Shown here: positions 36,967 through 51,626 of the stretch, one piece after another
How the letters are laid out: the number at the start of each line of letters is the position of its first letter
How positions within the stretch are numbered: position 1 is the stretch's first letter
Assembly (NCBI GenBank): GCA_020847175.1
Contig: JADLCM010000019.1
Location: forward strand, 1-64,000
Source: Phycisphaerales bacterium
Lineage (GTDB): Bacteria > Planctomycetota > Phycisphaerae > Phycisphaerales > UBA1924
Direction: 5' to 3'
Length of the DNA: 64,000 bases
Notes under the pieces: generated by a model
Seen by the model: the letters and a program-made list of their open reading frames with translations, nothing else
The model's database searches: none
Told to the model about the DNA's origin: nothing
Position numbers and translations under genes: made by a program

Positions 36967-37404
36967 ATGATTCCCTTCTTTACAGGCTTCGCGGTCATCG
37001 TGTGGATGCTCGCCGCGTTCTACCGGCGCAGGTGGCAGTCGTTCGCCTCCATCCTGCTCGCCATGCTCTTCATGGCCGGACTCATCCGGTTTCACAGTTA
37101 CATGGGCGAGGTGACTGAAGGGCGCATCTACACGCCGGTGCTGCGTCACGTCCTCATCGGATACGCCTGCTTCGTGGGGGTCACCGGGCTCTTCCTGGCC
37201 TGCATCCCGCGGGCGTTTCCGCGCGGCTGCTGTCAGGGGTGCGGGTACGACCTCGCGGGCCTGCATCACCTGCGCATGTGCCCGGAATGCGCGACCTCGG
37301 TCCGCGAGTCGCTGGCCCGCGCCGCGCGCCGGCACGGCCCTACCGGCGAGCCACCCGCACCACCACCCCGAGCCCCAGAATCGCCAGCGGCAGGCCCGCG
37401 ATGA
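36967..37404 (+). CDS. Small membrane protein with a C-terminal zinc ribbon
   Basis: 145 residues with three hydrophobic spans (about 3-20, 28-45 and 62-80), then CCQGCGYDLAGLHHLRMCPECA, written here in two parts: CQGCGYDL and CPEC, a four-Cys zinc ribbon. Membrane proteins with this CxxCGYDLxG...CPEC tail are frequent in planctomycete genomes and have no assigned role. The 3' end (Pro-rich) overlaps the convergent GldG-like gene by 65 bp, tail to tail. Confidence 0.78.
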   Translation: MIPFFTGFAVIVWMLAAFYRRRWQSFASILLAMLFMAGLIRFHSYMGEVTEGRIYTPVLRHVLIGYACFVGVTGLFLACIPRAFPRGCCQGCGYDLAGLHHLRMCPECATSVRESLARAARRHGPTGEPPAPPPRAPESPAAGPR

Positions 37405-39469
37405 TGAGCCAGCCCAGCAGCCGCTGACGCCCCTCGCTCATCGGACGCACCCGCGCCACGGCCCGCGCCGCGGGCCCCGGCGCGATCAGGTCATCCTGCC
37501 CCGCGAGCCACGAGATCGACGCGTCGAAGAACTCGGAGTTGCCCGGGTTCGCGAGCACCGTGCGTCCGTCCTCGGTCACCGAGGGCAGTGTCTGCGAGTC
37601 GAAGAACCAGCCGTTGGCGCCCACCACGACCAGGCGCTGGTTCACCCCGTCGCGCAGCCGGCGCTCGGCGAAGTACGCCACGGTCCACGGCCCGCGCAGG
37701 TCATCCACGCCCTCGTTCGGCGTGGGCAGGCCCGCCCCCGCGGCGGCCTCGACCCGCTGCTGCGCGAAGAACCTCCAGAGCCCCAGCCACTCGGCCTCCG
37801 CCCACGCCCCCGCCCGCGCCACCTCGATCGCGGGCACGCGCATCACGTCGTCGTGCCCGGGCAGCGTCGAGAGAGGCAGGCACCAGCGCAGCACCGTGGG
37901 CAGACCTTTGACGGCGCCCAGCACCGCGTGCTCACCCTCCAATGCCTGCACCCGCATCGTCGCGTCAACCTGCGCCCCCTGGGGCGTCTGCGTCAGGCCC
38001 AGGATGGGTCGCCCCGAGTCGGCCCTCAGCCCGAAGTCCCCGAGCACCGCCGCGGCGTCGTCGGTCCCTCCCCACGACGGCGCGGGCGAGGGCGCGAGCG
38101 AGACCAGCAGCGGCTTGCCCGCATCGACGACCAGGTGCAGGGCGCGCCCCAGCGCCGCGGCCCGGGCCGGCCCCGAGAGGCCCGCATCCTGCCCGATGCC
38201 GCTGCTTGCGTCGGTGCCCAGCGCCACGTAGACCACGGGCCTGCGGCCATCCGGGTCCGCAGCGCTCAGCACAGGCATCGCGGGGCGCTGCGTCACCGGC
38301 CACTCGACAAACGTCACCCGGCGCAGTTCCAGGCGCGCCCGCATGGCGTTCATCGCGCCTGATTCAAGCAGCGAGGCGCTCCCCTCGGCGTGCATCAGCA
38401 CCACGATCGGCGCATCCGGGTTGACCAGCGTGCCGAGCGCCGTCGTCACCACATCCTCGGCGTGCCGGCGCAGGCTGCCCCCCGTCACGTCCTCGGCCCC
38501 GGGCGGAAAGAGCGCATCGAGGCTGATCGCCGTCAGCCCCAGTTCGGGCGGGCCGATGATGATCGCGGCGGGCCCGCGCTCCAGCAGGCGGGCGACGCGC
38601 AGCACATCGGGGCGCGTGAGCCGCGCCAGTTCATCGGCGCCGAGGCGCATCCGCTCGCGCAGCGGGCCGATCGCCCCTGCGATCGCCTCGACCCGGGCCC
38701 GCGCTTCCCCGGGCAGCGTGCCCGTCGCCGAGGCCCCGAGGTCTCCCTCCAGGGACGCCAGGTCCGCATCCAGCCGGGTCAGCGCCGCGCGCAACATGCC
38801 CGCGGCGTCATCGAGCGCCCCCACCGGCACGCCCCCGACCTGCGCCTCCCCGCGCGTCCGGGCCTCTGCGCGCCGCTGGCGCGCCTGCGAGGCGAGAATC
38901 CGCACCACCCCCGCGCGCATGTCAAATGCCTTGCGCGCTGCGTCCGCATCGGCCCCGCCCGGCAGCGCGTCGCGCGCCTGTTCAAAGACCGGGCTCCACG
39001 AGCCCAGCGCCGCCGCCCCCTCCTCCAGTGTGAGCGAGGCGCGATCCAGCGCACCCTGCCACGCGCCGACCTGCGCCTGGTCGCGCGCCGCGAGCCCCTT
39101 GAGCACGTCCATGTAGGTCGCCTGCCCCTCGGGCGAGAGCGTGTCCACGGGCGTGAACGCGAAGGGCCCGTGCGCCCGGTCCATCTCCCGCAGCAGGTCG
39201 AACACCTCGCGCTGCGCCGCGCGTCCCGGCACGCCGGGGGTCCCTTCCGGCGCTGACCACGGCCCCGCGAGCACCAGGCGGCACGGGCCGGGCACCCGTT
39301 CCAGCGCGCGCAGGGCCCGCGCCGAGAGCCCCTGGTCGCCCCAGGCGGTGACATCCCAGCGCGGCATCTCCCGCGAGGTCGCGACGATCACCCCGGCGCA
39401 GCCGAGGGTCGCCGCCAGCGCGATCGCGCCCGCCCGCACGCCGAACCGGAAGCGCCGCGAGCGGTTCAT
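37340..39469 (-). CDS. GldG-like ABC-associated extracytoplasmic protein
   Basis: 709 residues. Topology: an N-terminal membrane anchor (FGVRAGAIALAATLGCAGVIVA), a large extracytoplasmic domain and a C-terminal span (LLGWLIIAGLPLAILGLGVV) before a basic end. This is the layout of GldG/ABC_transp_aux proteins that accompany GldA and GldF. Visible pieces: an N-terminal domain with a thioredoxin-like look (PCRLVLAGPWSAPEG) and late LVVVGANGWFFDSQ and LANPGNSEFFDASISWLAGQ, which are typical for the family. ATG 39469 overlaps the permease stop (ATGA). In other bacteria such systems take part in gliding or envelope processes; the role here is unknown. Confidence 0.85.
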   Translation of the reverse strand: MNRSRRFRFGVRAGAIALAATLGCAGVIVATSREMPRWDVTAWGDQGLSARALRALERVPGPCRLVLAGPWSAPEGTPGVPGRAAQREVFDLLREMDRAHGPFAFTPVDTLSPEGQATYMDVLKGLAARDQAQVGAWQGALDRASLTLEEGAAALGSWSPVFEQARDALPGGADADAARKAFDMRAGVVRILASQARQRRAEARTRGEAQVGGVPVGALDDAAGMLRAALTRLDADLASLEGDLGASATGTLPGEARARVEAIAGAIGPLRERMRLGADELARLTRPDVLRVARLLERGPAAIIIGPPELGLTAISLDALFPPGAEDVTGGSLRRHAEDVVTTALGTLVNPDAPIVVLMHAEGSASLLESGAMNAMRARLELRRVTFVEWPVTQRPAMPVLSAADPDGRRPVVYVALGTDASSGIGQDAGLSGPARAAALGRALHLVVDAGKPLLVSLAPSPAPSWGGTDDAAAVLGDFGLRADSGRPILGLTQTPQGAQVDATMRVQALEGEHAVLGAVKGLPTVLRWCLPLSTLPGHDDVMRVPAIEVARAGAWAEAEWLGLWRFFAQQRVEAAAGAGLPTPNEGVDDLRGPWTVAYFAERRLRDGVNQRLVVVGANGWFFDSQTLPSVTEDGRTVLANPGNSEFFDASISWLAGQDDLIAPGPAARAVARVRPMSEGRQRLLGWLIIAGLPLAILGLGVVVRVARR

Positions 39470-40185
39470 CGCCACCTCCGCGAGGCAAGCGCCAGGTACG
39501 CGAGCGTGACGAACCACGCCGAGAGCGCGATGAAGTACGCGACGTGCGACAGGTCGATGACGCCGCGGGCGAAATCACCCAGCCGGGTCGGTATCGACAG
39601 GCGGCGCAGCACTTCAGCCGCCCCGGCCCAGCGCGGAATGAGAATGTCCGGCCCGGCGAGCATCACGAGGAGCAGCAGAAACGCGCCGAGGAAGGCGAGG
39701 GTCTGGCTGGAGGTCAGGGCCGAAACCAGGGCGCCCGCCGCGAGATACAGCGCGCCCACGAGCACCAGCGAGAGATAGCCCGCGACGATGGGCCCCGCGT
39801 CCGGCGGGCGGTCGGAGAGCGCCGCGAGCAGGGGCACGTACAGCAGCGACGGCGCGATCATCGACAGCAGAAAGAGAAGGCCGCCCAGGTACTTCCCGGC
39901 GCACACCGCGGCGTCGCTGACCGGGCTCGTCAGAAGGGGCTCGATGGTCCCCGTGCGGGCCTCTTCGCTCAGGAGGCGCATCGACACCGCGGGGCAGATG
40001 ACGATGAGCAGGGCGCCGGTTGCCGAGAAGTAGTCGCGCATCGAGGCGATCTCTCCGGGGCGCAGCGCCGCCGCCGCGAACACCACCCCGCTGATCAGCG
40101 CCCCGAGCGCGATCACCACCCACCCCACCGGCAGGCGGAAGAACGATGCCCACTCGCGGGCCGCGATGGTCCAGGCGCCTCTCAC
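39466..40185 (-). CDS. ABC-2 type permease, GldF-like
   Basis: 239 residues with six hydrophobic spans, beginning MRGAWTIAAREWASFFRLPVGW; a conserved ABC-2 element MRLLSEEARTGTIEPLLTSP sits after the second span. I chose GTG 40185, which overlaps the ATPase stop (GTGA), over a TTG 21 bases upstream. It is the membrane channel of the three-gene operon ATPase-permease-GldG-like protein. All three junctions are four-base overlaps, so subunits are made in step. Confidence 0.9.
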   Translation of the reverse strand: MRGAWTIAAREWASFFRLPVGWVVIALGALISGVVFAAAALRPGEIASMRDYFSATGALLIVICPAVSMRLLSEEARTGTIEPLLTSPVSDAAVCAGKYLGGLLFLLSMIAPSLLYVPLLAALSDRPPDAGPIVAGYLSLVLVGALYLAAGALVSALTSSQTLAFLGAFLLLLVMLAGPDILIPRWAGAAEVLRRLSIPTRLGDFARGVIDLSHVAYFIALSAWFVTLAYLALASRRWR

Positions 40186-41120
40186 GCGCCCTCCCGCTCG
40201 ATGCAATCCATGAACACTCGCTCCAGCGTCGGCTCGTCAAGGTGCAGCTCGCGCACCCGCACCCCGTCGAGCGCCTTGGCGATGCCTTCGCGCGGATCGC
40301 CCTCGACGATCAGCCGCACCCGCGCCCACGGCGCGCCCGGTTCACTCTCCACGTGCGCTTCCGCCACGCCGGGCACCGGGCGCAGGCGTGCCATGAGCCC
40401 CTCCAGGTCGTGTATCCCCTGCGCGAACTCCACCCATGCCCGGCGCGGGCCCGCCGCCCGCGCGACCAGCGCGTGGGGCGTGCCGTCGGCCATCACACGA
40501 CCGCGCGCGATGATGATCACCCGGTCGCATGTGCGCTCGACCTCGGCGAGAATGTGCGAACTCACCAGGAGCGTGCGTTCCGCGCCGATCTCCCGGATCA
40601 GCCGTCTCATCTCCACGATCTGCGTGGGGTCGAGCCCGTTCGCCGGCTCGTCGAGGATGACCACCTTGGGGTCGTGCACCAGCGCCGCCGCCAGCCCCAC
40701 GCGCTGCCGGTAGCCCTTGCTGAGATGGGCGATGCGCCGCGTGCGGACTTCCCGCAGCCAGCAACGCTCAATCACCCGTCCCGCCGCGGCGCTGCGCTGG
40801 CGCCGCCCCACGCCGCTGAGCGCGGCACGAAACTTCAAAAAGTCTCCCACCCGCATCTCCGGATACGACGGGGCGGATTCGGGCAGGTACCCGAGCATCC
40901 TGCGGGCGCCGAGCGAATCCTCGAGGCTGTCCTTGCCGCAGAGCGAGATGCCCCCCTTGTCCGCCGGAAGGTACCCCGCCGCGATGCGGATGGTCGTGCT
41001 CTTGCCCGCCCCGTTCGGACCGAGCAATCCCGTAATTACACCGGGTGCCACATCGAACGACACGCCGCGCACGGCGTGGACCTTTCCGAACGACTTGTGG
41101 ACTTCTCGGACGCTGAGCAT
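40182..41120 (-). CDS. ABC transporter ATPase, GldA-like
   Basis: 312 residues. Walker A LGPNGAGKST, Q-loop LGYLPESAPSYPEM, signature LSKGYRQRVGLAAAL, Walker B VVILDEPANGLDP and H-loop SSHILAEVE are all intact. The LSKGYRQR signature and the C-terminal extension (LHLDEPTLERVFMDC) are typical of ABC-2/GldA-type ATPases. It powers the GldF/GldG-like partners downstream. First gene of the operon; a 275-bp divergent region separates it from the sensor gene at 41396. Confidence 0.93.
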   Translation of the reverse strand: MLSVREVHKSFGKVHAVRGVSFDVAPGVITGLLGPNGAGKSTTIRIAAGYLPADKGGISLCGKDSLEDSLGARRMLGYLPESAPSYPEMRVGDFLKFRAALSGVGRRQRSAAAGRVIERCWLREVRTRRIAHLSKGYRQRVGLAAALVHDPKVVILDEPANGLDPTQIVEMRRLIREIGAERTLLVSSHILAEVERTCDRVIIIARGRVMADGTPHALVARAAGPRRAWVEFAQGIHDLEGLMARLRPVPGVAEAHVESEPGAPWARVRLIVEGDPREGIAKALDGVRVRELHLDEPTLERVFMDCIEREGA

Positions 41121-41395: not shown

Positions 41396-42913
41396 GTGAG
41401 CGCCCCGGTGGGGATGGGTCGAGGCGTGCAACCAAGTGTGCCACCTGAGGCGCCGGGCGAGGCCATTCTGGGCCTGAGCCCGGACGGCATGGCATTGTTC
41501 ACCGGCACGGGCGAACTGATCCACGCGAACGCCGCCTTCGGTGCGCTCCCCGAGGTGCTGCGACTCCGGGTCGTCGAACTGGTCACGGCTTCGGCACTCC
41601 GTCCGCCCGAGCGTCGGGGCGGGCCCCTGCCGCAGGCGCTGAGCGAAGTGGAGTTGCCCGGGGGCGCGACCTTCGAGGTTCGCGTGCTCCCGCAGGCCTC
41701 GGGCACCCATGCCCGCGCGGCGGCACTTGTCCGCGATGTGACCGAGGCGCGGAACTTCTCGCGCTGGCTCGGGCAGGTGGACCGGGCCGGCGCCGAGCTG
41801 CTCCGGTACGACGCGCAGCAGATCCGCGACATGAACGCGGTGGAACGCCTGCAACTGCTCGAGACCCGGCTGGTCAAGGCCGCCCGCGACGTGCTGCACT
41901 TCGAGAGTTTCTCGGTCTGGCTGCTGGACGAGAAGTCAGGACGGCTGGAGTGCATCATCCGCCACGGCCTGCCCGCGGAAGTCGCGAACCTGGAACTCTA
42001 CCGCGGACAGGACGGGAACGGAATCACCGGGCATGTCGCCGCCACGGGGATGAGTTACCTGTGCGACGATACCGAGTCAGACCCGCTCTTCATGCCGGGC
42101 GCGACCGGGGCGAAGTGCTCGCTGACAGTCCCCTTGAAAATCCACGAACGGGTGATCGGGATTCTGGACGCCGAAAGCACGCAGGCCCACGACTTCAACG
42201 CGGAGGACCGGACGCTCGCCGAAGCCTTCGGCCGATACGTGGCGATGGCCCTGGGCATGCTCGAACTTCTCGTGGTCGAGCGGGCTGCGACCAACGCGAC
42301 CGCCTGCGGGCGCGTGGAAGGCGAGATTCGAGAGCCGCTCGAAGATATTCTGACCGAGGTCGAATCGTTGCTCACCCGCGACGAGACCGCCAAGAGCGAA
42401 GGGTGCGGGCACGCGGCTCGCATCCGGGCCGACGTGGAGAGCATCCGCCAGAAACTGCGCGATGCCGCCGCCGGGCCGCAGACGATTCTCGGCGTCGAGC
42501 GCGCCTTGGCCAAGCGCGAGGCCGATCCGGTGCTCGCGGGCAAGCGGGTGCTCGTGGCGGACGACGAATCACGCATCCGGCGCGTGCTCGGCGATGTGCT
42601 CCGCAACCGCGGCTGCCTGGTCACGATCTGCGCGTGCGGCGAAGAAGCCATCGAAGCGATCCGGCACGCCGAACGCTTCGACCTGGTGGTCAGCGACATC
42701 AAGATGCCCGATCGCAACGGGTACGAGGTCTTCGCCGCGGCGCGGGCCAAGCTCGGCGATGTTCCCGTGATCCTCATGACCGGCTTCGGCTACGACCCGC
42801 ACCACTCCATCGTGCGCGCGAGCCAGGAGGGCCTGCAGGCCGTGCTCTTCAAGCCCTTCCAGATCGAGCGCATGGTCGATGAGGTGCGTAAGTCGCTCAC
42901 GCCGAAGCCCTGA
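41396..42913 (+). CDS. PAS/GAF sensor with a C-terminal receiver domain
   Basis: 505 residues, starting at GTG 41396 with GGAGGG ten bases upstream. Residues about 20-115 are PAS-like (ILGLSPDGMALFTGTGELIH), about 150-290 are a GAF domain (WLLDEKSGRLECIIRHGLP; GNGITGHVAATGMSYLCDD), followed by a helical segment without a recognisable histidine kinase H-box or ATPase, and residues 383-505 are a CheY-type receiver with acidic DD at 389-390, phospho-acceptor Asp434 (VVSDIKMPDRNG) and Lys486 (LFKPF). It has no output domain. The partner kinase is not encoded nearby. Confidence 0.88.
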   Translation: MSAPVGMGRGVQPSVPPEAPGEAILGLSPDGMALFTGTGELIHANAAFGALPEVLRLRVVELVTASALRPPERRGGPLPQALSEVELPGGATFEVRVLPQASGTHARAAALVRDVTEARNFSRWLGQVDRAGAELLRYDAQQIRDMNAVERLQLLETRLVKAARDVLHFESFSVWLLDEKSGRLECIIRHGLPAEVANLELYRGQDGNGITGHVAATGMSYLCDDTESDPLFMPGATGAKCSLTVPLKIHERVIGILDAESTQAHDFNAEDRTLAEAFGRYVAMALGMLELLVVERAATNATACGRVEGEIREPLEDILTEVESLLTRDETAKSEGCGHAARIRADVESIRQKLRDAAAGPQTILGVERALAKREADPVLAGKRVLVADDESRIRRVLGDVLRNRGCLVTICACGEEAIEAIRHAERFDLVVSDIKMPDRNGYEVFAAARAKLGDVPVILMTGFGYDPHHSIVRASQEGLQAVLFKPFQIERMVDEVRKSLTPKP

Positions 42914-42979: not shown

Positions 42980-44146
42980 CTACACCCGGTACGCCTGGGC
43001 CACCTTGTGCAGCGCCTCTTCGACCACGCGGAAGTGCTCGTCGGACAGGTCGTGGTGCATGGGCAGGCAGAAGACCCGCTGCGAGAGCGCATCGGCGACG
43101 GGGGGGTGATCCTTCACCACGGCGCGGAAGGCCGGCTGGCGCGTGAGGCTGCGCGGGTAGTGCGTCGCCGTGGGCACGCCCTCGGCCCCCAGCGCCTTGC
43201 AGAACTCATCGCGCGTGCAGCGGACGCGGCCCAGATCGAGGCGCGCGGTGTACAGGTGCCACACGCCCTCCGCCCCGGGCGTCCGCGCCGGGGGCTCGAT
43301 GCCGCCCACCCGGGCCAGGATGGCGTCGTACCGATCGGCGTTGCGCCGGCGCTGGGCGGTCTGGTCGGCGAGGCGGTTGAGGCGCGAGCACCCGATCGCC
43401 GCGGCGATGTCGTTCAGGCGGTAGTTGTACCCCACCTGGTCATGCAGGTACTTGTCGGTCTCGCCGTGCGAGCGGAGTAGGCCGAGCTGGCGTGCCAGCG
43501 CATCGTCGTTGGTGCTCACCAGTCCGCCCTCGCCAGTCGCGAGGTTCTTCGTCGCATACAGCGAATAGGTCACCGCGTCGCCGAAGGCGCCCAGGCCCTT
43601 GCCCTTGTACGTCGCCAGGTGCGCCTGCGCCGCGTCGTAGATGACCTTGAGCCCCGCGTCGCGCGCCAGGGCCTGCACCGCGTCGATATCCACCGGCATC
43701 CCGTACAGGTGCGTGCAGGCGATCGCCGTGGTGCGCTTCGTGAGACGCCGGCGTGCATCGGCGGCGTCAATCTGCATCGTGCCCGGCAGGGCGTCGCAGA
43801 AGATCGGGTTGCCCCCCCGCGCCACCACCATGCTCACGGTCGCGATGTAGGACCACGCCGGCACGAGCACATCGTCGCCGGGCTTGAAGAGGGGCTCGTA
43901 CGCCAGTTGGAGCGCGCACGTGCCGTTGGCGCAGGTCAGGGTGTGCCTGGAGCCCGTCAGCTCGTTCCAGCGCTTCTCCAGTTCGGCGCACCGGGCGCCC
44001 TGGCGCAGGATCCCCGAACGCAGCACCGCCGTCGCCGCCTCGATGTCGTCGGGCGTCAGCGCCAAGGACATGAACGGCACGGGCTTGGCGGAGACCGGCG
44101 TCCCGCCGGAGAGGGCCAGGGCCGGAGGAGCGACGGACTGCGGCAT
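42980..44146 (-). CDS. DegT/DnrJ/EryC1/StrS-family sugar aminotransferase
   Basis: PLP-dependent aminotransferase that usually makes amino sugars for polysaccharides or antibiotics. 388 residues (usual 370-390). VIYDAAQAHLATY carries the PLP ring Asp171, and YSLYATKNLATGEGGL carries the PLP lysine Lys200 in the classic SxxxxKNLxTGEGG context. NYRLNDIAAAIGCSRL and the C-terminal region complete the fold. ATG 44146 has AGGAG eight bases upstream. Some members are dehydratases, but the lysine rules that out here. No sugar-nucleotide genes are adjacent; it is divergent from the export cassette. Confidence 0.94.
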   Translation of the reverse strand: MPQSVAPPALALSGGTPVSAKPVPFMSLALTPDDIEAATAVLRSGILRQGARCAELEKRWNELTGSRHTLTCANGTCALQLAYEPLFKPGDDVLVPAWSYIATVSMVVARGGNPIFCDALPGTMQIDAADARRRLTKRTTAIACTHLYGMPVDIDAVQALARDAGLKVIYDAAQAHLATYKGKGLGAFGDAVTYSLYATKNLATGEGGLVSTNDDALARQLGLLRSHGETDKYLHDQVGYNYRLNDIAAAIGCSRLNRLADQTAQRRRNADRYDAILARVGGIEPPARTPGAEGVWHLYTARLDLGRVRCTRDEFCKALGAEGVPTATHYPRSLTRQPAFRAVVKDHPPVADALSQRVFCLPMHHDLSDEHFRVVEEALHKVAQAYRV

Positions 44147-44345: not shown

Positions 44346-45320
44346 ATGCGCGTGAGGCGAGCGGGCGTCGGTGTGGGTCTGGCTGCCTTGGCGGGCGCCG
44401 CGTTTGCGGTCGGAGCCGGTCCGATCCCGCAACCCGGGGCAAACACGGGGCCTGACGGCACGGAGAGCGTCGAGGACCTCGCCGCCCGGTTCGCGGGGGA
44501 GCGAAGCTACACCCAGGCAAGCCGGGATGCCCAGGTCGGGTTTCAGATTTCGACGCAGGTGATGCAAGTCCTGGTTCGAGGGGGCGAGCGCGTCCACGTC
44601 GATCAGGAACTCGTGATCGGCGACGCGGGCGAGGAGGCGGCCCTTCTCGAAATCCAGCGCACCCGGGCCAACACCGATCTGCCGGTGAAGCGGGCCGAGG
44701 CGGCGCTCGAACTGGCGAAGGTTGAACTCGCGCGCATGAAGGAGGCCCACAGCCGGGGCGGCGCCACCGACAACGAACTGAACCGGGCCGAGGTCTCGGA
44801 GGTGATCGCCCAGATCGATCTTGAAACGGCGAAGTGGAACCAGGCGCAGGAGGGCGCCCAGCTCGGCCGCCTCGAAAAACGCGTCGCCCGGTACAGCCTG
44901 CTCGCCCCCTTCGACGGCATCGTGGACATGGTGATCGTGGACCGGGGCGACGTGATCCGCGAGTCGGAGCCGGTGCTGCGGGTGGTGCAGATTGACCCGC
45001 TTTTGATCGACGTGCAGACGCCCATCGACATCGCCATGGGCCTCGCGCTCAAGAAGGGCGATCCGGCCTGGGTGCTGCTCGAGGTGCCCTCGAACCCCGT
45101 GCTGACGAAGGGGAAGGTGATCGAGGTGAGCCCGATGGCCAACTTCGCCGCCCGCAAACTGCGGATCCGCGTCGAAGTCGCCAACCCTGAACTCTGGCCG
45201 GCCGGGCTGGCGGCGTGGGTGCGCTTCGACAACCCCGGCGAACCCTGGAATGGCATGTTGCGCGCGGAAGCGGGCGCAGCGCCGGAACCCGCCGCCGCGG
45301 GAGCCTCCGGAGATCAATGA
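44346..45320 (+). CDS. HlyD/RND-type periplasmic adaptor
   Basis: 324 residues, with a signal peptide (VGVGLAALAGAAFAVGAG). The fold is that of a membrane-fusion protein: a first lipoyl half (VMQVLVRGGERVHVDQELVI), a long alpha-hairpin at about residues 100-180 (RAEAALELAKVELARMKEAH ... LETAKWNQAQEGAQLGRLEK), a second lipoyl half (YSLLAPFDGIVDMVIVDRGD) and a beta-barrel. It is the first gene of the four-gene cassette; the next gene starts one base after its stop. No RND pump or TolC-like channel is nearby, so the pump it serves may be the M50/SecA-like pair downstream. That is inference. Confidence 0.87.
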   Translation: MRVRRAGVGVGLAALAGAAFAVGAGPIPQPGANTGPDGTESVEDLAARFAGERSYTQASRDAQVGFQISTQVMQVLVRGGERVHVDQELVIGDAGEEAALLEIQRTRANTDLPVKRAEAALELAKVELARMKEAHSRGGATDNELNRAEVSEVIAQIDLETAKWNQAQEGAQLGRLEKRVARYSLLAPFDGIVDMVIVDRGDVIRESEPVLRVVQIDPLLIDVQTPIDIAMGLALKKGDPAWVLLEVPSNPVLTKGKVIEVSPMANFAARKLRIRVEVANPELWPAGLAAWVRFDNPGEPWNGMLRAEAGAAPEPAAAGASGDQ

Positions 45321-45321
45321 C

Positions 45322-47277
45322 GTGATCGACCTCTCGAAGATCAAGGCTCCGGGCTGGCAGCGCGTGGTCGAGGAACTCTCCAGGCCCGCGCCCGACGACC
45401 GCGCGTTCCTCGCTCGGCTCCTCTCGATCCAGGCGCAGGTCTCCGGCGCACGCCAGGGCGTGCTGTACGCCGTGCCCCCCGCCCAGGGGGCCGCCCCGGG
45501 CGCCGAGCCCGAGCCCACGCCCCTCCTCATCTGGCCTCCGGCCGAGGGCGGCACGGGTGAGCCGGGCACCGTGCCCATCGAACACGAATCGGAGGCCCGC
45601 GACGCGGCCCGGGCCGCCGGGGGTTCGCGCCAGACCCGAGTCTTCGGCCTGGAGAAGAGCGACGGGCTTTACGAGGGCGGATCGCAGGCATACATGGTCG
45701 GGGTCTCGCTTTCACCCGGGAGCGACCATGCCCCGGGGCATGTCATCACGCTGCTCATCGAGGCCCGCACGCGCCAGGCGCTCCAGACCACCCTCGCCCT
45801 CGTCGAGGTGGTCGCGGGGTACATCCACGCCCACGCGGCCCGGCGCGAACTCGCCCGCGCGCGGGCGTCCAGCGCGTCGCTCGATCTCGCCGTGCGCCTC
45901 ATCGCCTCGATCAACCAGGCCGCGGGCTTCCGCGGCGCGTGCATGCAGGTGTGCAACGACCTGACGCGGCACCTCGCGCTCGACCGGGCGGCCCTGGGCT
46001 GGGTCAAGGGCGTGGGCGCGAACTCGGGCACCCTCCGGGCCGTCGCCATGAGCGACACCGAGCACTTCGACCGTCGCATGGCATTCGTCAAGAAGGTCGA
46101 AGCCGCGATGGACGAGTGCTTCGACCAGGAGCAAGCCGTGCTGCACCCGGTGCCGCCGGCAGAAGGGCCTGCGGGCGACGTGCTGCTGGGGCAGGCGATC
46201 GCGCACGCGCACCGCGAACTCGCCTCGGCGGACGCGAAGCTGCGGGTGGCTTCGGTTCCGCTTCGCGTGGGGGATGACGTGCTGGGCGTGCTGACGGTCG
46301 AGTCCGCCGCGGATGCATCGACGCTGGGCGTGCCCCTCGTCGAACTGCTGCAGGCCGCGATGGACCTCGTGGCGCCGGTGCTCGCGGTGCGCCGAAGCGA
46401 TGACCGCGTGCTCGCGCTGCGGGCCGTTGATTCCACGCGCCGGGCCGGATCGTGGCTCGTCGGGCCCAGGCACACGATCTGGAAGCTGGCCCTCGTGGCG
46501 GCGACGATCGCGGTGCTCGCCGCGGTCTTCGTCACCGTGCCCTACCGCATCGAAGCGCCGATGGAGCTCACGCCCCGCACCCAGCGCATCGTGAGCGCCC
46601 CCTTTGACGGCGTCATCGACCGGCTGGGCGAACACGCGATCAAGGGTTCGACCGTCAAGGCGGGCGACCTGCTCGTCTCGATGCGGACCACCGAACTCCA
46701 CCTGGGTCTGCAGGACGCTCTCGTGAAGATGCAGCAGGCCCAGACCCGTGCCGACGCCTCGCTGCGCGAGGGCAAACTCGAAGAAGCCGAACAGGCGAAG
46801 CAGGACATCGAGGCGGCGAAGGCCCAGATCGACCTGCTGCGCTACCGAATCGACCAAGCCGAACTCCGCAGCCCCATCGACGGCGTGATCGTGGACGGCG
46901 ACCTCCGCGAGCGGGTCGGCAGCACCGTCAAACTCGGCGATGCCTTCTTCGTCATCGCCAGGGTGGACGACATGATCGCCGTCGCCAAGGTCTCCGACAC
47001 CGACGTGAGCTACATCGCCGAGTCGATGCGCGGCGAACTCGCCACCCGCAGCGACCCCGCCGCGACCTTCGGCGTCCACGTCGAACGCCTCGTGCCCATG
47101 GCCCGCGCGGAAGGCGGCAGCAACACCTTCGAGGTCCGGGCCGCCCTCGACGAAACCGCCCCCTGGATGCGCCCGGGCATGGAGGGCATCGTGAAACTCA
47201 ACACCGGACCACGCTCGATCGCGTGGATCCTCACGCGCCGCATCCGCGACACCGCCCGCTTGTGGCTCTGGTGGTGA
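45322..47277 (+). CDS. GAF-TM-HlyD protein (cytosolic sensor fused to an export adaptor)
   Basis: 651 residues, starting at GTG 45322 with GGAG at -10. Residues 1-385 are soluble and contain one or two GAF-like domains (best at about 190-350: VCNDLTRHLALDRAALGWVK; VASVPLRVGDDVLGVLTVES). One span at 387-408 (IWKLALVAATIAVLAAVFVT) leads to a HlyD-type adaptor region: IVSAPFDGVIDRLGE, a coiled coil at about 460-520 and LRSPIDGVIVDGDLRERVGS. The protein is thus a cytoplasmic small-molecule or redox sensor joined to a periplasmic adaptor. One base separates it from the upstream gene; both are probably co-translated. Confidence 0.88.
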   Translation: MIDLSKIKAPGWQRVVEELSRPAPDDRAFLARLLSIQAQVSGARQGVLYAVPPAQGAAPGAEPEPTPLLIWPPAEGGTGEPGTVPIEHESEARDAARAAGGSRQTRVFGLEKSDGLYEGGSQAYMVGVSLSPGSDHAPGHVITLLIEARTRQALQTTLALVEVVAGYIHAHAARRELARARASSASLDLAVRLIASINQAAGFRGACMQVCNDLTRHLALDRAALGWVKGVGANSGTLRAVAMSDTEHFDRRMAFVKKVEAAMDECFDQEQAVLHPVPPAEGPAGDVLLGQAIAHAHRELASADAKLRVASVPLRVGDDVLGVLTVESAADASTLGVPLVELLQAAMDLVAPVLAVRRSDDRVLALRAVDSTRRAGSWLVGPRHTIWKLALVAATIAVLAAVFVTVPYRIEAPMELTPRTQRIVSAPFDGVIDRLGEHAIKGSTVKAGDLLVSMRTTELHLGLQDALVKMQQAQTRADASLREGKLEEAEQAKQDIEAAKAQIDLLRYRIDQAELRSPIDGVIVDGDLRERVGSTVKLGDAFFVIARVDDMIAVAKVSDTDVSYIAESMRGELATRSDPAATFGVHVERLVPMARAEGGSNTFEVRAALDETAPWMRPGMEGIVKLNTGPRSIAWILTRRIRDTARLWLWW

Positions 47278-47446
47278 GCGGGGCGGGGGGAGGGGTGGGC
47301 AAATGACCACACGGGGAAATAGGGAAATGAGCCATTGTTGATCGCAGTTCGCCGCTTGCCCGCTTACCGCATGGCCTGAATCCGCGCCGCTTCACCTCGC
47401 CGCTTCGCCACCACACCGCCTCACAACCTCACCCTCCATCCTCACC

Positions 47447-49621
47447 ATGTCCGAGCGTCCGACATTCTCTCCCTTCTGGCACCGGGTCCGGGCGCTGCGC
47501 CCGCGCCTGCGTCCGCACGTGCAGATCACCCGGCAGCACTACCGGGGTGAGCGCTGGCATGTCGTGCATGACCCGTCCTCCAACCAGTTCTATCGCCTCA
47601 ACCCGATCGCCCACGAGTTCGTCGGGCTGCTGGACGGCCGGCGCACCGTGGAAGAGGTGTGGGAGCTCTGCCTCACCCGGCACGCCGACGCCGCCCCCAC
47701 GCAGAACGAGGCCCTCCAGCTCATCGCCCAGCTCTACGGCGCGAACCTTCTGAGCGTGGATGCCTCGCCCGAGGTCGAGCAGCTGCTGCGGCGCGGGCGC
47801 GACCGGCTGAAGAAGAAGGCGATCGGGCAGATCGTGGGCATCATGTACTTCAAGATCCGGCTCTTCAACCCGGATCGTCTCGTCGCCGCCGTCGAGCCGG
47901 TGCTCCGCCCGCTGATCTCCCGTCTCGGGCTCGTGCTCTGGGCGGGGCTGGTGTTCTTCGCCCTCCTCTCGCTCGCGCCGCACGCGCGCACGCTGATGGG
48001 CGACGCGTCCAGCGCGATCGCTCCCTCCAACTGGGGCTGGCTCAGCGTCGTCTTCATCCTCACCAAGGCCGTTCACGAACTCGGGCACGCCGTCATTCTC
48101 AAGCGCTTCGGCGGGCAGGTGCCCGAGTGCGGCCTGATGCTGCTCGTGCTCTTCCCGGCGCCGTACGTCGATGCCTCCGCCGCGTGGACGCTCGAGAACA
48201 AGTGGCGCCGCATCGCGGTGGGCGCGGGGGGCATGCTCTTCGAACTCTGCATCGCATCCGTCGCGGCCCTCGTGTGGGTGGGCACGCTCGGCGCCGAGGG
48301 TTCGCTCACGCACCAGCTCGCGTACAACGCCATGTTCATCGCCAGCGTCTCTACGGTGCTCTTCAACGCCAACCCCCTCATGCGATTCGACGGCTACTAC
48401 ATGCTCAGCGACCTCATCGAAATTCCCAACCTCATGCAGCGCTCGCAGCGCCTCATCCAGCACTTCTTCAAGCGCCATGCCTACCGGCTCAAGCACGAGC
48501 CCGCGCCCACCACGAGCCCGTCGGAGCGCTGGGTTCTCGCCCTGTACGGCGTGCTCAGCCTCGCCTACCGCCTCTTCCTGTTCCTCAGCATCACCCTGCA
48601 CGTGATGGGCGTGATGTTCGGGCTCGGCCTCCTGCTCGCCCTCTGGACCAGCGCCATGTGGTTCTTCCTGCCCGTGGGCAAGTTCATCCACTGGCTCGCC
48701 GCGGGCCCCGCCCTGCACGACCGGCGCTGGCGGGCGGTGGGGGTGAGCCTCCTGCTCGCCCTCGCGGTCATCATCCCGGTGGGGCTGGTGCCCTTCCCCG
48801 ACCACCGGCGTGCCTCGGGCGTCGTCGAGGCCCGCCTGCGCACGGGCGTCTACTTCGGGGTTGACGGTTTCGTCGAAGAGGCCTTCGCACGCCCCGGAGA
48901 TCGCGTCGAGGCGGGCCAGCGGATCGCCCGTCTCTCGAACCCCGAACTTGAACAGCGGATCACCGCGGGCCGGGCCCAGATCGCCAAGGTCCGCAGCCTG
49001 ATGCTCCAGGCGACGCTGGAGCAGCCCGTCGCCGTCGATGTCTACGAGGCCCAGCTCGACGCACTCGAGGAACAGCTCGGGTTTCTCCTCACGCGCCGCG
49101 AGGCGCTCGACGTCGTGGCCCCGCACGCGGGGGTCATCGTCGGCGCCGACCCCGATGCGCTCGTCGGGTCGTATGCGCGCGAGGGCCAGGCCATCTGCGA
49201 GCTCGTCGATGACGCCTCCCTCCACATCGTCGCTAGCCTCGGACAGCGCGAGAACGCCTGGGCCATCTCCGCGCAGCGCGGCGACCTCGAACTCCGCGCG
49301 CACGCCCGCTTCCTCAGCCGCGCCTACGTCAGCGTGCCCTGCGCGGTCGAGGAGGTGATCGAGGCCGGCCAGCGCACGCTCGCGCACGGCGCGCTGGCCT
49401 ACGCCGGTGGCGGCACCATCCAGACCCAGTCCGACGACCGCACCGGGCGCCAGGCTTCCGCCAAGCAGTTTGAAGTGCTGCTGGCCCCCGGGCCGGGCCC
49501 GGGCTGGCGCGGCAGCCCCGGCGAGCGCGTCGCCCTGCGCTTCACGCTTCCCGCCCGGCCCCTCGCCTTCCAGTGGGCCGACCGGCTGCACAAACTCATC
49601 CAGTCCCGGGTGAAACTCTGA
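47447..49621 (+). CDS. PqqD-like / M50 site-2 metalloprotease / HlyD-like membrane protein
   Basis: 724 residues. N-terminal 100 residues look like a PqqD-type winged helix (YRLNPIAHEFVGLLDGRRTV). The central region has about eight spans with an M50 active site, AVHELGHAVILKRFGG (His210, Glu211, His214), and the partner motif FNANPLMRFDGYYMLSDL near 307-325, which supplies the third zinc ligand Asp. The C-terminal 260 residues are a lipoyl/HlyD-type adaptor (GVYFGVDGFVEEAFARPGDR; ALDVVAPHAGVIVGADPDAL). Peptide-export systems sometimes join an M50 protease with a HlyD-like part. It is 169 bp after the GAF-HlyD gene and 19 bp before the SecA-like gene. Confidence 0.88.
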   Translation: MSERPTFSPFWHRVRALRPRLRPHVQITRQHYRGERWHVVHDPSSNQFYRLNPIAHEFVGLLDGRRTVEEVWELCLTRHADAAPTQNEALQLIAQLYGANLLSVDASPEVEQLLRRGRDRLKKKAIGQIVGIMYFKIRLFNPDRLVAAVEPVLRPLISRLGLVLWAGLVFFALLSLAPHARTLMGDASSAIAPSNWGWLSVVFILTKAVHELGHAVILKRFGGQVPECGLMLLVLFPAPYVDASAAWTLENKWRRIAVGAGGMLFELCIASVAALVWVGTLGAEGSLTHQLAYNAMFIASVSTVLFNANPLMRFDGYYMLSDLIEIPNLMQRSQRLIQHFFKRHAYRLKHEPAPTTSPSERWVLALYGVLSLAYRLFLFLSITLHVMGVMFGLGLLLALWTSAMWFFLPVGKFIHWLAAGPALHDRRWRAVGVSLLLALAVIIPVGLVPFPDHRRASGVVEARLRTGVYFGVDGFVEEAFARPGDRVEAGQRIARLSNPELEQRITAGRAQIAKVRSLMLQATLEQPVAVDVYEAQLDALEEQLGFLLTRREALDVVAPHAGVIVGADPDALVGSYAREGQAICELVDDASLHIVASLGQRENAWAISAQRGDLELRAHARFLSRAYVSVPCAVEEVIEAGQRTLAHGALAYAGGGTIQTQSDDRTGRQASAKQFEVLLAPGPGPGWRGSPGERVALRFTLPARPLAFQWADRLHKLIQSRVKL

Positions 49622-49640
49622 GCCCCCGGAGCGCTCGCCC

Positions 49641-51626
49641 ATGACCCAGGCCCTCACGCGATACGCGGCGCTGCACGGCTCGATCATGAGCCGCCGGCGC
49701 GTGCCGCGCACGCTCAAGGGCCTTGACCGGCTCAACGCCTGGCTTCAGCTCCGGGCCGCCCAGCGGCGCTCCCGTCCGAGCGTGCTGTGGCGCCACGTGC
49801 GCGCCGCCGAGGCCCTCGCCCCCGCCCTCCGCAGCCACTCCGAGGCGGCGTTTGATGAGCAGGTGATGCGCATCCGCGAACGGTTCATCCGGCGCGATGT
49901 CGACACCGACGTGCTGCGTCGGGCGCTCGCCGTGGTGCGCGAGGCGGCGCGGCGCGAGACGGGCGAAGAGGCCTACCCGGTGCAGATGCTCGGCGCGATG
50001 GCCCTCTACCACGGGCGGATCATCGAGATGCTCACCGGCGAGGGCAAGACGCTCACGGGCTCGCTCGCGGCCCCCCTCATCGCCTGGACGCACCGCTCCG
50101 TGCACGTGCTGACGGTGAACGACTACCTCGCGCGGCGCGATGCGCACTCGCGGGCGGGGCTCTACCGGCGCCTCGGGTGCTCGGTGGGGGCGATCCAGCA
50201 GGAGCAGGAGCCGCTCGAACGCTTTGACATCTACGCCCGCGCGATCGTCTACGGCACTCCCAAGCAGATCACCGCGGACTTCCTGCGCGACCAGCTCCGC
50301 GTTGCGCCCCTGGGCGCCCCGTGGGCGGGGCGCATGGCCCTCGCCCGCTTCGGCGATGACGCCCGCGCCATGGGGCCGATGATCCCGGGCTTGCGGGCGG
50401 CGCTCGTGGATGAAGCCGACGCCGTGCTCATCGATGAAGGCGTGGTGCCCCTCATCATCGCTCAAAGCCGCCGGGGCGACGACATGGCCCGGGTCTACCA
50501 CGAAGCCTGCTCGATCGCCGCGAAACTCGACGAGGGCCCCGATTACGCCGTCGATCACCTCCGCAAGCGGGCCGAGATCAGGCGCCGCGGCCTCGCCCGC
50601 GCCGAACAGATGTGGCGCGCCTGTGATGCCCCCATCTGGAGGGCCCCCCGGCGCGCCGAAGAACTCATCCGCCAGGCGCTCATCGCCCGGCATTGCTACC
50701 TGCGGGGCAAGCAGTACGACATCGTCGACGGGCGCGTGGTGATCGTCGATGAGTACACCGGGCGATTCCTCGCCGATCGATCGTGGGAGCACGGGCTGCA
50801 CCAGGCCGTCGAAGCCAAGGAAGGGGTCGAGGTCACCGCCGACCGCGAGACGCTCGCCCGCATGAGCTTCCAGCGGTTCTTCCGGGGGTACCCGTTCCTC
50901 TGCGGCATGACCGGCACCGCCGCCGACGCCTCGCGCGAGATGGAGCACGTCTACGCCCGCCCCGTGAGCCGCATCCCCACGCACCGGCCGATGATCCGCG
51001 TGCAGTGGCCCATGCGGGTCTTCCGGCGCCCCGAAGACCGCGACTCGGCGCTGGTCGATGAGATCGAACGCCTCTCGCGCGAGGGCCGCCCCGTGCTCAT
51101 CGGCACGCGCTCGATCGAAGCCTCCGAGGCGCTCTCAGCCCGGCTCGCGGCCCGCGGCCTGCCTCACAAGGTTCTCAACGCCCTGCACGATGCCGAAGAG
51201 GCCGAACTGATCTCGGGCGCGGGCGCCGCCGGCGCCATCACCGTCGCCACCAACATGGCGGGGCGCGGCACCGACATCCTCCTCGACCCCGCCGCCCGCG
51301 CCGCCGGGGGCCTTGTGGTGCTCCTCTCCGAGATGCACGGGGCCAAACGCATCGACCGCCAGTTCATCGGGCGCGCCGGGCGGCAGGGCGACCCGGGCGC
51401 GGCGCGCATCTATGCCTCGCTCAAGGACGAACTCCTCGGCCAGCACCTGCGCCCGGCCCGCACCCTGCTCGAATCTTCGTGCAAGGAGGGCGAAGTGACC
51501 ATGCGCCGGCTCGCCGCCCGCTGCTTCCGCCTCGCCCAGCGCCGAAGCGAAGCCCGCGCCCGGCGCGGCCGGGCCGATGTGCTCCGCCAGGATGACTGGA
51601 TCGACAAGAATCTGCCGGGGTGGTGA
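49641..51626 (+). CDS. Short SecA-like translocase ATPase
   Basis: 661 residues; housekeeping SecA usually has 850-1000. Motor motifs are all present: Walker A IEMLTGEGKTL (132-137), VDEADAVLIDE with a DEAD box at 257-260, VIVDEYTGR, SFQRFFRGYPFLCGMTGTA, VATNMAGRGTDI (about 535-546) and the arginine-finger region FIGRAGRQGDPG. The preprotein-crosslinking region between DEAD and IVDEYTGR is only about 100 residues, and the helical wing, two-helix finger and C-terminal zinc tail are short or missing; the protein ends DKNLPGW. It is therefore a paralog, not the main SecA. Position directly behind the PqqD-M50-HlyD gene suggests that it powers export through that complex. Confidence 0.88.
   Translation: MTQALTRYAALHGSIMSRRRVPRTLKGLDRLNAWLQLRAAQRRSRPSVLWRHVRAAEALAPALRSHSEAAFDEQVMRIRERFIRRDVDTDVLRRALAVVREAARRETGEEAYPVQMLGAMALYHGRIIEMLTGEGKTLTGSLAAPLIAWTHRSVHVLTVNDYLARRDAHSRAGLYRRLGCSVGAIQQEQEPLERFDIYARAIVYGTPKQITADFLRDQLRVAPLGAPWAGRMALARFGDDARAMGPMIPGLRAALVDEADAVLIDEGVVPLIIAQSRRGDDMARVYHEACSIAAKLDEGPDYAVDHLRKRAEIRRRGLARAEQMWRACDAPIWRAPRRAEELIRQALIARHCYLRGKQYDIVDGRVVIVDEYTGRFLADRSWEHGLHQAVEAKEGVEVTADRETLARMSFQRFFRGYPFLCGMTGTAADASREMEHVYARPVSRIPTHRPMIRVQWPMRVFRRPEDRDSALVDEIERLSREGRPVLIGTRSIEASEALSARLAARGLPHKVLNALHDAEEAELISGAGAAGAITVATNMAGRGTDILLDPAARAAGGLVVLLSEMHGAKRIDRQFIGRAGRQGDPGAARIYASLKDELLGQHLRPARTLLESSCKEGEVTMRRLAARCFRLAQRRSEARARRGRADVLRQDDWIDKNLPGW

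Follow-up and report, generated by a model that had tools for sequence, protein, structure and literature searches.

A conserved gene set of adaptors, an M50 protease and a short SecA as a candidate export route for large LEPR-leader surface proteins

What might a SecA-like motor, a membrane protease and several periplasmic adaptors accomplish together when their genes stand side by side? The question is raised by four same-strand genes at positions 44346-51626 of the window, by which we mean the whole 64,000-nucleotide stretch of the Phycisphaerales contig JADLCM010000019.1 that was analysed. A first-pass annotation had described these genes as a membrane fusion protein (MFP), a GAF-TM-HlyD protein, a PqqD-M50-HlyD protein and a short SecA, and had read the set as an undescribed, energised export or processing system. 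All four open reading frames were confirmed and their content matches that description. The reading itself is supported by conserved synteny, linked giant genes and additional SecA genes, although export has not been shown experimentally. We consider it probable that the cassette is a trans-envelope exporter dedicated to large surface proteins marked by an N-terminal LEPR leader, a proposal for which there are no biochemical or genetic data. The genes and their parts are as follows.

44346-45320, + strand: gene 1, MFP1, a soluble periplasmic adaptor (RND/HlyD-type membrane fusion protein; HlyD_3 2.3e-9, RND_mfp 7e-26, also HlyD_D23)
45322-47277, + strand: gene 2, GAF-TM-HlyD adaptor (Pfam GAF 1.7e-4, HlyD_D23 7e-15)
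45940-46374, + strand: GAF domain in the cytosolic N-terminal part of gene 2 (Pfam)
46486-46542, + strand: single membrane span of gene 2 (hydropathy)
46576-47181, + strand: periplasmic HlyD part of gene 2 (Pfam, hydropathy)
47447-49621, + strand: gene 3, PqqD-M50-HlyD membrane protein (Pfam/NCBIfam, AlphaFold2, Foldseek)
47558-47752, + strand: PqqD-like (RRE-type) domain of gene 3, cytosolic side, candidate leader reader (PF05402 E 4e-8)
48074-48088, + strand: M50 zinc-protease motif HELGH, residues 210-214 (H210, E211 and H214 invariant)
48365-48394, + strand: second M50 motif NANPLMRFDG with the metal-ligand Asp, residues 307-316 (D315 invariant)
48785-49561, + strand: periplasmic HlyD/MacA-like adaptor half of gene 3 (HlyD_D23, Foldseek)
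49641-51626, + strand: gene 4, short SecA-family ATPase with NBD1, PPXD and NBD2 (Pfam, alignment, AlphaFold2, Foldseek)
50487-50813, + strand: preprotein cross-linking domain (PPXD), inserted in NBD1 of gene 4 (PF01043 E 6e-22, full model covered)

The intergenic distances given previously (1, 169 and 19 bp) are correct provided that gene 2 begins at the GTG at 45322; the alternative ATG start at 45250 would create a 71-bp overlap with gene 1. Hydropathy places a signal-peptide-like hydrophobic stretch at residues 6-24 of the gene 1 product, and the gene occupies the same place in the loci of relatives. ABC genes at 39466-41120 showed no conservation alongside the cassette in relatives' loci, and PADLOC returned no defence match.

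The most conserved marker of the system is gene 3, whose product combines PqqD (E 4e-8), Peptidase_M50 (1.8e-6) and HlyD (1.9e-7) matches in Pfam. The PqqD domain scores 33.9 bits, above the gathering score of 23.4; its region also gives a profile match to PqqD 3g2b (E 0.0018), and R50 and G64 are invariant in an alignment of relatives. With HExxH and a distal NxxPxxxxDG in membrane helices, the protein meets the criteria for the M50 (site-2-protease) family. The active-site motifs are complete, and HExxH is kept in 52 of the 52 relatives listed. An AlphaFold2 model (mean pLDDT 87) was compared with known structures by Foldseek, which matched the C-terminal half to MacA, MexA and AcrA, with a TM-score of 0.70 on target length for MacA 3fpp. 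The adaptor fold is one shared with MacAB-TolC and AcrAB-TolC, but the cassette lacks a pump protein and its adaptor is fused to a protease.

Domains of the PqqD (RRE) type bind leader peptides in RiPP pathways, and the first-pass annotation had taken this as a hint about the cassette. Conceivably, the substrate of the PqqD-M50 protein is a small modified peptide that it cleaves and sends out, much as happens in daptide or epipeptide maturation, and RiPP leaders are indeed bound by PqqD-like domains. The best NCBIfam match of gene 3 is daptide_HExxH, at 188.9 bits. Furthermore, the daptide (NF041824) and epipeptide YydH/LiaK (NF058609) M50 proteins are likewise intramembrane proteases linked to leader-bearing precursors, and the daptide model spans the PqqD region. 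Yet the daptide score falls far under the curated cut-off of 300, the epipeptide model yields 45 of 225 bits, and gene 3 differs from both in its fusion to a complete MacA-like adaptor and in its giant substrates. Membership of either equivalog was rejected on these scores and on the absence of any conserved small precursor among the features noticed in the cassettes, where no modification enzyme was noticed either. The sole small partner, DUF3467, carries no leader motif, and the linked partners are giant proteins. We thus regard peptide maturation as very improbable. Since the substrates appear to be large LEPR-leader surface proteins rather than small precursors, the RiPP hint stands merely as an analogy to what PqqD and M50 proteins do elsewhere.

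Gene 4 satisfies the criteria for a motor of the SecA superfamily. It carries Walker A and DEAD box motifs together with those of PPXD and NBD2, the ATPase motifs are invariant, and the Pfam matches are strong (SecA_DEAD 9e-81, SecA_PP_bind 6e-22, P-loop_SecA 6e-48). The earlier description of a SecA without much of its preprotein-binding parts needs revision: the PPXD is present over the whole Pfam model, whereas the C-terminal third is gone. Specifically, the chain stops where the scaffold helix begins, near the equivalent of residue 603 in B. subtilis SecA; it has only the beginning of that helix and no wing domain, two-helix finger or C-tail. Because every aligned family member has the same C-terminal end point, the shortness is a trait of the family and not the product of a frameshift. 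Foldseek matched the AlphaFold2 model (mean pLDDT 84.5) to SecA, including the C-truncated SecA-N68 5k9t. The loss of the two-helix finger suggests, by inference, that the motor handles its chain in a way unlike ordinary SecA. In the accessory Sec system (SecA2/SecY2, serine-rich repeat adhesins), a dedicated SecA paralogue is similarly tied to very large surface proteins. However, the cassette SecA lacks the C-terminal third, there is no SecY2, the partners are MFP and TolC proteins, and the leader is not an extended Sec signal. Membership of accessory Sec was rejected given the missing third and SecA2 scores far under their cut-offs (TIGR03714, 411 of 930 bits; TIGR04221, 405 of 725; TIGR04397, 437 of 1085). 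Whether the genome held other SecA genes had been left as a point to check. It has three, namely one within a 1364-aa open frame on contig C2, the window copy and a copy on contig C52, so the cassette copy is not the sole SecA.

The gene order is conserved far beyond chance. Synteny, proposed in the first-pass annotation as a check, is kept in dozens of relatives, across phyla, and in a second cassette of the same genome. That second cassette, on C52, reads DUF3467, GAF-HlyD, PqqD-M50-HlyD, SecA. MFP1 is found only in the window copy and DUF3467 only in the C52 copy, as if an original set of five genes had undergone duplication and a different member had then disappeared from each copy, although this history is inferred. 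Among 54 M50 loci from the same order, SecA is present in 47; the arrangement MFP1-GAFHlyD-M50-SecA occurs in 18, DUF3467-GAFHlyD-M50-SecA in 10, and all five genes in 4. Outside the window, the set is extended by DUF3467 and sometimes by TolC.

The cassette ranges over at least ten phyla. The best 80 GTDB loci, with taxa as recorded and MAG binning unverified, come from Planctomycetota, Verrucomicrobiota, Lentisphaerota, Kiritimatiellota, Omnitrophota, Elusimicrobia, Spirochaetales, Nitrospirota, Desulfobacterota-type groups, Chlorobiaceae, Fibrobacter and alpha-, beta- and gammaproteobacteria. GAF-HlyD was found in 76 of them, SecA in 67, MFP1 in 59, DUF3467 in 15 and TolC in 12, counts that are lowered by loci cut at contig ends. 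TolC also occurs in 4 of 12 plasmid loci, and the window genome has TolC-family ORFs, but away from the cassette. Most cassettes include the short SecA, but it is either dispensable or able to act in trans. A nearby SecA is absent from 25 of 150 classifiable loci, and its presence changes about 12 times on a FastTree phylogeny of the M50 protein; the motor can therefore be lost, replaced or supplied from elsewhere.

What the cassette handles is indicated by its neighbours. Linked giant secreted genes, which the first-pass annotation had suggested looking for, do exist: giant LEPR-leader genes lie directly upstream of cassettes. In Proteobacteria, the cassette stands directly downstream of giant genes of 24-43 kb, with up to 14,390 codons. 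Plasmid cassettes in Alphaproteobacteria were found by tblastn. The upstream giant gene measures 31.8 kb in Pontibrevibacter (where it is annotated LEPR-XLL), 26.5 kb in Methylosinus, 24 kb in Alisedimentitalea, 31.5 kb in Mesorhizobium and 38 kb in Pseudosulfitobacter; DUF3467 usually sits between the giant and the cassette at these five loci, and TolC is present in Methylosinus. Where the giant beside a SecA-bearing alphaproteobacterial cassette was read to its N-terminus, it began with a basic stretch and xEPRxLLxAD in five of five cases (MEPRVLLSAD, LEPRVLLNAD, LEPRLLLSAD, FEPRVLLSAD and LEPRLLLAAD), the motif of the Alisedimentitalea giant lying just upstream of the annotated start. Thalassospira has the same arrangement without SecA, and a more distant SecA-less set stands behind giants with LESRQLFDGA or LEPRFMFDAA on plasmids of E. 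coli and Azospirillum. In seven further genomes, a same-strand motif frame of 7,974-14,390 codons stops 1.7-2.5 kb short of the M50 gene. This gap is the room taken by a GAF-HlyD gene, so the motif giant ends just before GAF-HlyD; in six of the seven the length of the contig agrees as well, and for one (G435) placement rests on coordinates only. Motif genes also adjoin the cassette in Planctomycetota, Verrucomicrobia, Omnitrophota, Magnetococcales, Massilia and Roseovarius. Cultivable, non-pathogenic strains in which a cassette and a LEPR giant are neighbours include Neptuniibacter caesariensis MED92, Massilia sp. Leaf139, Methylosinus sp. C49 and Mesorhizobium ciceri R30. Among the 226 ORFs in cassette surroundings that reach 800 aa or more, a strict motif expression matched the N-terminus of 14, where shuffled sequences would give 0.16. 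Loose matches without the E-x-L-E-x-R spacing (loci L156, L178 and L188) were set aside as noise.

Across 46 cargo heads, the leader has the consensus [FL]E-x-LE-P-R-[VLI]-LL-S-A-D following a basic region. The expression used to collect them fixed E, E and R, restricted some further positions and left the flanking F/L, P, S, A and D unconstrained. The part before the motif is basic and mostly non-hydrophobic, with a median best 12-residue Kyte-Doolittle mean of 0.44 and values above 1.6 in only 3 of the 46. Judged by composition, then, the leader is not a typical Sec signal, as it has no Sec h-region. The motif of the linked giants is the one known as LEPR-XLL in NCBIfam (NF012209), as Planc_extracel (PF07595) and as RRLxxExLExRxLLA, all of which describe the tag only. 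In PMC8567305, the planctomycete motif RRLxxExLExRxLLA is given as a presumed novel export signal (Studholme et al. 2004, cited therein), and in Tuwongella it is reported on 8 of the 10 longest proteins. We count the linked proteins as cargo because they share the motif at their N-termini and because LEPR-XLL matches over cut-off lie near the N-termini of long cassette-linked proteins.

The association also holds at the level of genomes. We scored the M50 gene by profile A1 (E<=1e-30) and the motif by NF012209 in 392 Planctomycetota genomes. The M50 gene was present in 37 of 38 motif genomes, compared with 98 of 392 overall (Fisher 4e-24). When stratified by family, using only genomes with a family recorded, the exact p was 9e-7. 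In a sister family of the same order (f2), motif and M50 gene were both absent from nine of nine genomes, and in nine of the Planctomycetota genomes no more than about 5 kb separated a motif gene from the M50 gene. In addition, of the 30 cassette-bearing genomes picked from the GTDB contig scan (A1), 28 had motif proteins over cut-off, as did 1 of 14 control genomes. There were 61 M50-positive genomes with no strict motif match among the matches listed; the motif model has only 24 positions. A strict motif without the M50 gene occurred in two genomes, one by NF012209 (G222) and one by PF07595 (G242). PF07595 proved too weak as a stand-alone marker, since the M50 gene was present in 20 of the 32 genomes with matches at E<0.01, and in 8 of the 9 with matches over cut-off. 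As for LapB/LssB-type type I secretion (TIGR03375), none of 343 Planctomycetota genomes had a match over cut-off. Used as a negative control, TIGR03375 matches above 400 bits occurred in 18 genomes, probably representing peptide exporters, and the motif was present in 2 of these, about as expected by chance. We consider the functional link between leader and cassette to be strong, with leader binding, cleavage and the channel remaining inferences.

These distributions bear on the possibility that the cassette is an unusual tripartite efflux pump or an accessory Sec apparatus for ordinary substrates, tied to LEPR proteins only by shared lifestyle or ancestry. Its MFP parts are like MacA and AcrA and its ATPase is like SecA and SecA2, as such a device would have. 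Nevertheless, operon-type adjacency to motif giants recurs in unrelated phyla, the co-occurrence persists within families, and no RND, MFS or ABC pump gene is conserved in the cassette. Of the alternatives considered, this one has the least to recommend it, and we give it hardly any credence.

How might a dedicated LEPR exporter work? By analogy with RREs in RiPP pathways, the PqqD domain on the cytosolic side would bind the leader. The short SecA would then grip the unfolded chain through NBD1, PPXD and NBD2 and drive it across the inner membrane. The pore could be SecYEG or the cassette's own membrane part, for example the M50 membrane domain; it has not been identified, and this is the main gap in the proposal. 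In the periplasm, the HlyD half of the M50 protein, GAF-HlyD and MFP1 may assemble into a mixed duct leading to a TolC-type channel. The M50 site is predicted to cut the leader, perhaps near LLS(A)-D. Finally, the GAF domain could couple export to a cytosolic signal, and DUF3467 may be an accessory factor.

Alternatively, the cassette could be confined to sorting and processing. LEPR proteins would pass through the inner membrane in some other way, leaving the cassette to recognise, cut and anchor or release them in the manner of exosortase or rhombosortase. That the protease and the leader-binding domain are the most conserved parts would fit this scenario, as would the loci without SecA and the absence of an encoded inner-membrane channel from the cassette. 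It is difficult to see, however, why a processing device would need three MFP domains, a frequent TolC and a conserved ATPase. Moreover, the tag is N-terminal and no Sec-type hydrophobic signal precedes the motif. We therefore think processing alone unlikely, though it deserves more weight than the other alternatives, and continue to favour export.

Among known exporters, type I secretion (HlyB/HlyD/TolC, and LapB/LapC for giant adhesins) resembles the cassette in its HlyD-type adaptors, in TolC at some loci and in giant repetitive surface cargo. In contrast, the cassette has a SecA-family ATPase and no ABC transporter, its presumed cargo shares an N-terminal leader where type I substrates bear a C-terminal signal, and it adds a PqqD-bearing M50 protease and three adaptor-type components. 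Membership of type I secretion was accordingly rejected, as MFPs are present but an ABC gene is not conserved. The first-pass annotation knew of no named system with this gene set, and our search of the open-access literature (for the gene set, DUF3467, LEPR-XLL, Planc_extracel and giant planctomycete proteins) likewise found no description of the cassette; nor did the papers found name an export machinery for the LEPR tag. Preprints and many journals lay outside that search, and priority is therefore not certain, but the system is apparently undescribed. We lean, with less assurance than for export itself, toward a new category of secretion system, present in at least ten phyla, that would use a truncated SecA where type I secretion uses an ABC ATPase. 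Its PqqD-M50 protease-adaptor fusion would read the N-terminal LEPR leader and remove it, and the largest exported proteins would have about 14,000 residues. The SecA-less branch, including that on E. coli plasmids, may serve DUF4347-type giants with a LESRxLFDGA leader. If this is true, some of the largest known proteins cross two membranes without a Sec signal peptide, a SecA-family motor works in a TolC-type duct, and a RiPP-style leader reader has been reused for giant proteins. In the papers found, the export route of the LEPR tag has gone unnamed since the 2004 proposal, and the cassette offers a concrete, directly testable candidate with linked cargo in many genomes.

The window's own genome has no cargo gene adjacent to either cassette, which is expected if one exporter serves several substrates. 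It does encode likely cargo at a distance. Three proteins match NF012209 over cut-off near the N-termini of 1793-, 2618- and 809-aa frames, and a fourth candidate was recognised by eye from KLEPRQMLFS at the head of a 3211-aa frame. Of these, the 1793-aa frame encodes a subtilase bearing P- and PPC domains, and the 809-aa frame a cyclophilin; both products match PF07100, the cyclophilin just under cut-off.

The window's own genome holds another copy of the cassette (contig C52, L005:6426-12929), whose gene content is complementary to that of the window copy, with DUF3467 present (L005:6426-6746) and the periplasmic adaptor MFP1 absent. DUF3467 also lies between the giant gene and the GAF-HlyD gene in several phyla. 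We conclude that this family of unknown function belongs to the cassette system.

Two of the LEPR-motif proteins encoded by the same genome are:
L113:3164-8542, LEPR subtilase
L115:4494-6920, LEPR cyclophilin
They have in common a C-terminal stretch that matches PF07100 (ASRT), slightly under the cut-off in the cyclophilin, and this stretch is possibly a surface-anchoring module.

Among the longest open frames with the motif found in our analysis are one of 14,390 codons in a Sulfuritalea MAG (G434:C11:76104), upstream of its cassette (L174), and one of 14,158 codons in Verrucomicrobia IMCC26134 (G455:C1:3701295), adjoining the L171 cassette. Matches to the motif were also obtained from a control genome, Deinobacterium chartae, for which presence or absence of the cassette is undetermined.

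Several genes lie beside the cassette in the window:
37340-41120, minus strand, single operon encoding ABC ATPase-like, permease-like and 709-aa proteins
41438-42913, plus strand, GAF and response-regulator protein, shortly ahead of the cassette
42980-44146, minus strand, DegT-type aminotransferase, divergent from the cassette
Because the cassette includes a GAF-HlyD protein, the GAF and response-regulator protein is a possible regulator. The operon resembles Gld-type transporters in gene arrangement, and its 709-aa protein had no match in Pfam. Many related cassettes in the family have beside them a gene that agrees with the aminotransferase gene in orientation and roughly in size (about 390 aa), its identity as DegT-type being unchecked.

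A relative of the cassette that lacks SecA occurs on E. coli plasmids (L096; NZ_CP081687.1, 44829-64580), where the set comprises an Ig-like giant beginning with FALESRQLFDGA, TolC, MFP, HlyD and M50-HlyD. Across 5426 complete E. coli genomes, 24 carry the M50-HlyD gene, which is located for the most part on plasmids.
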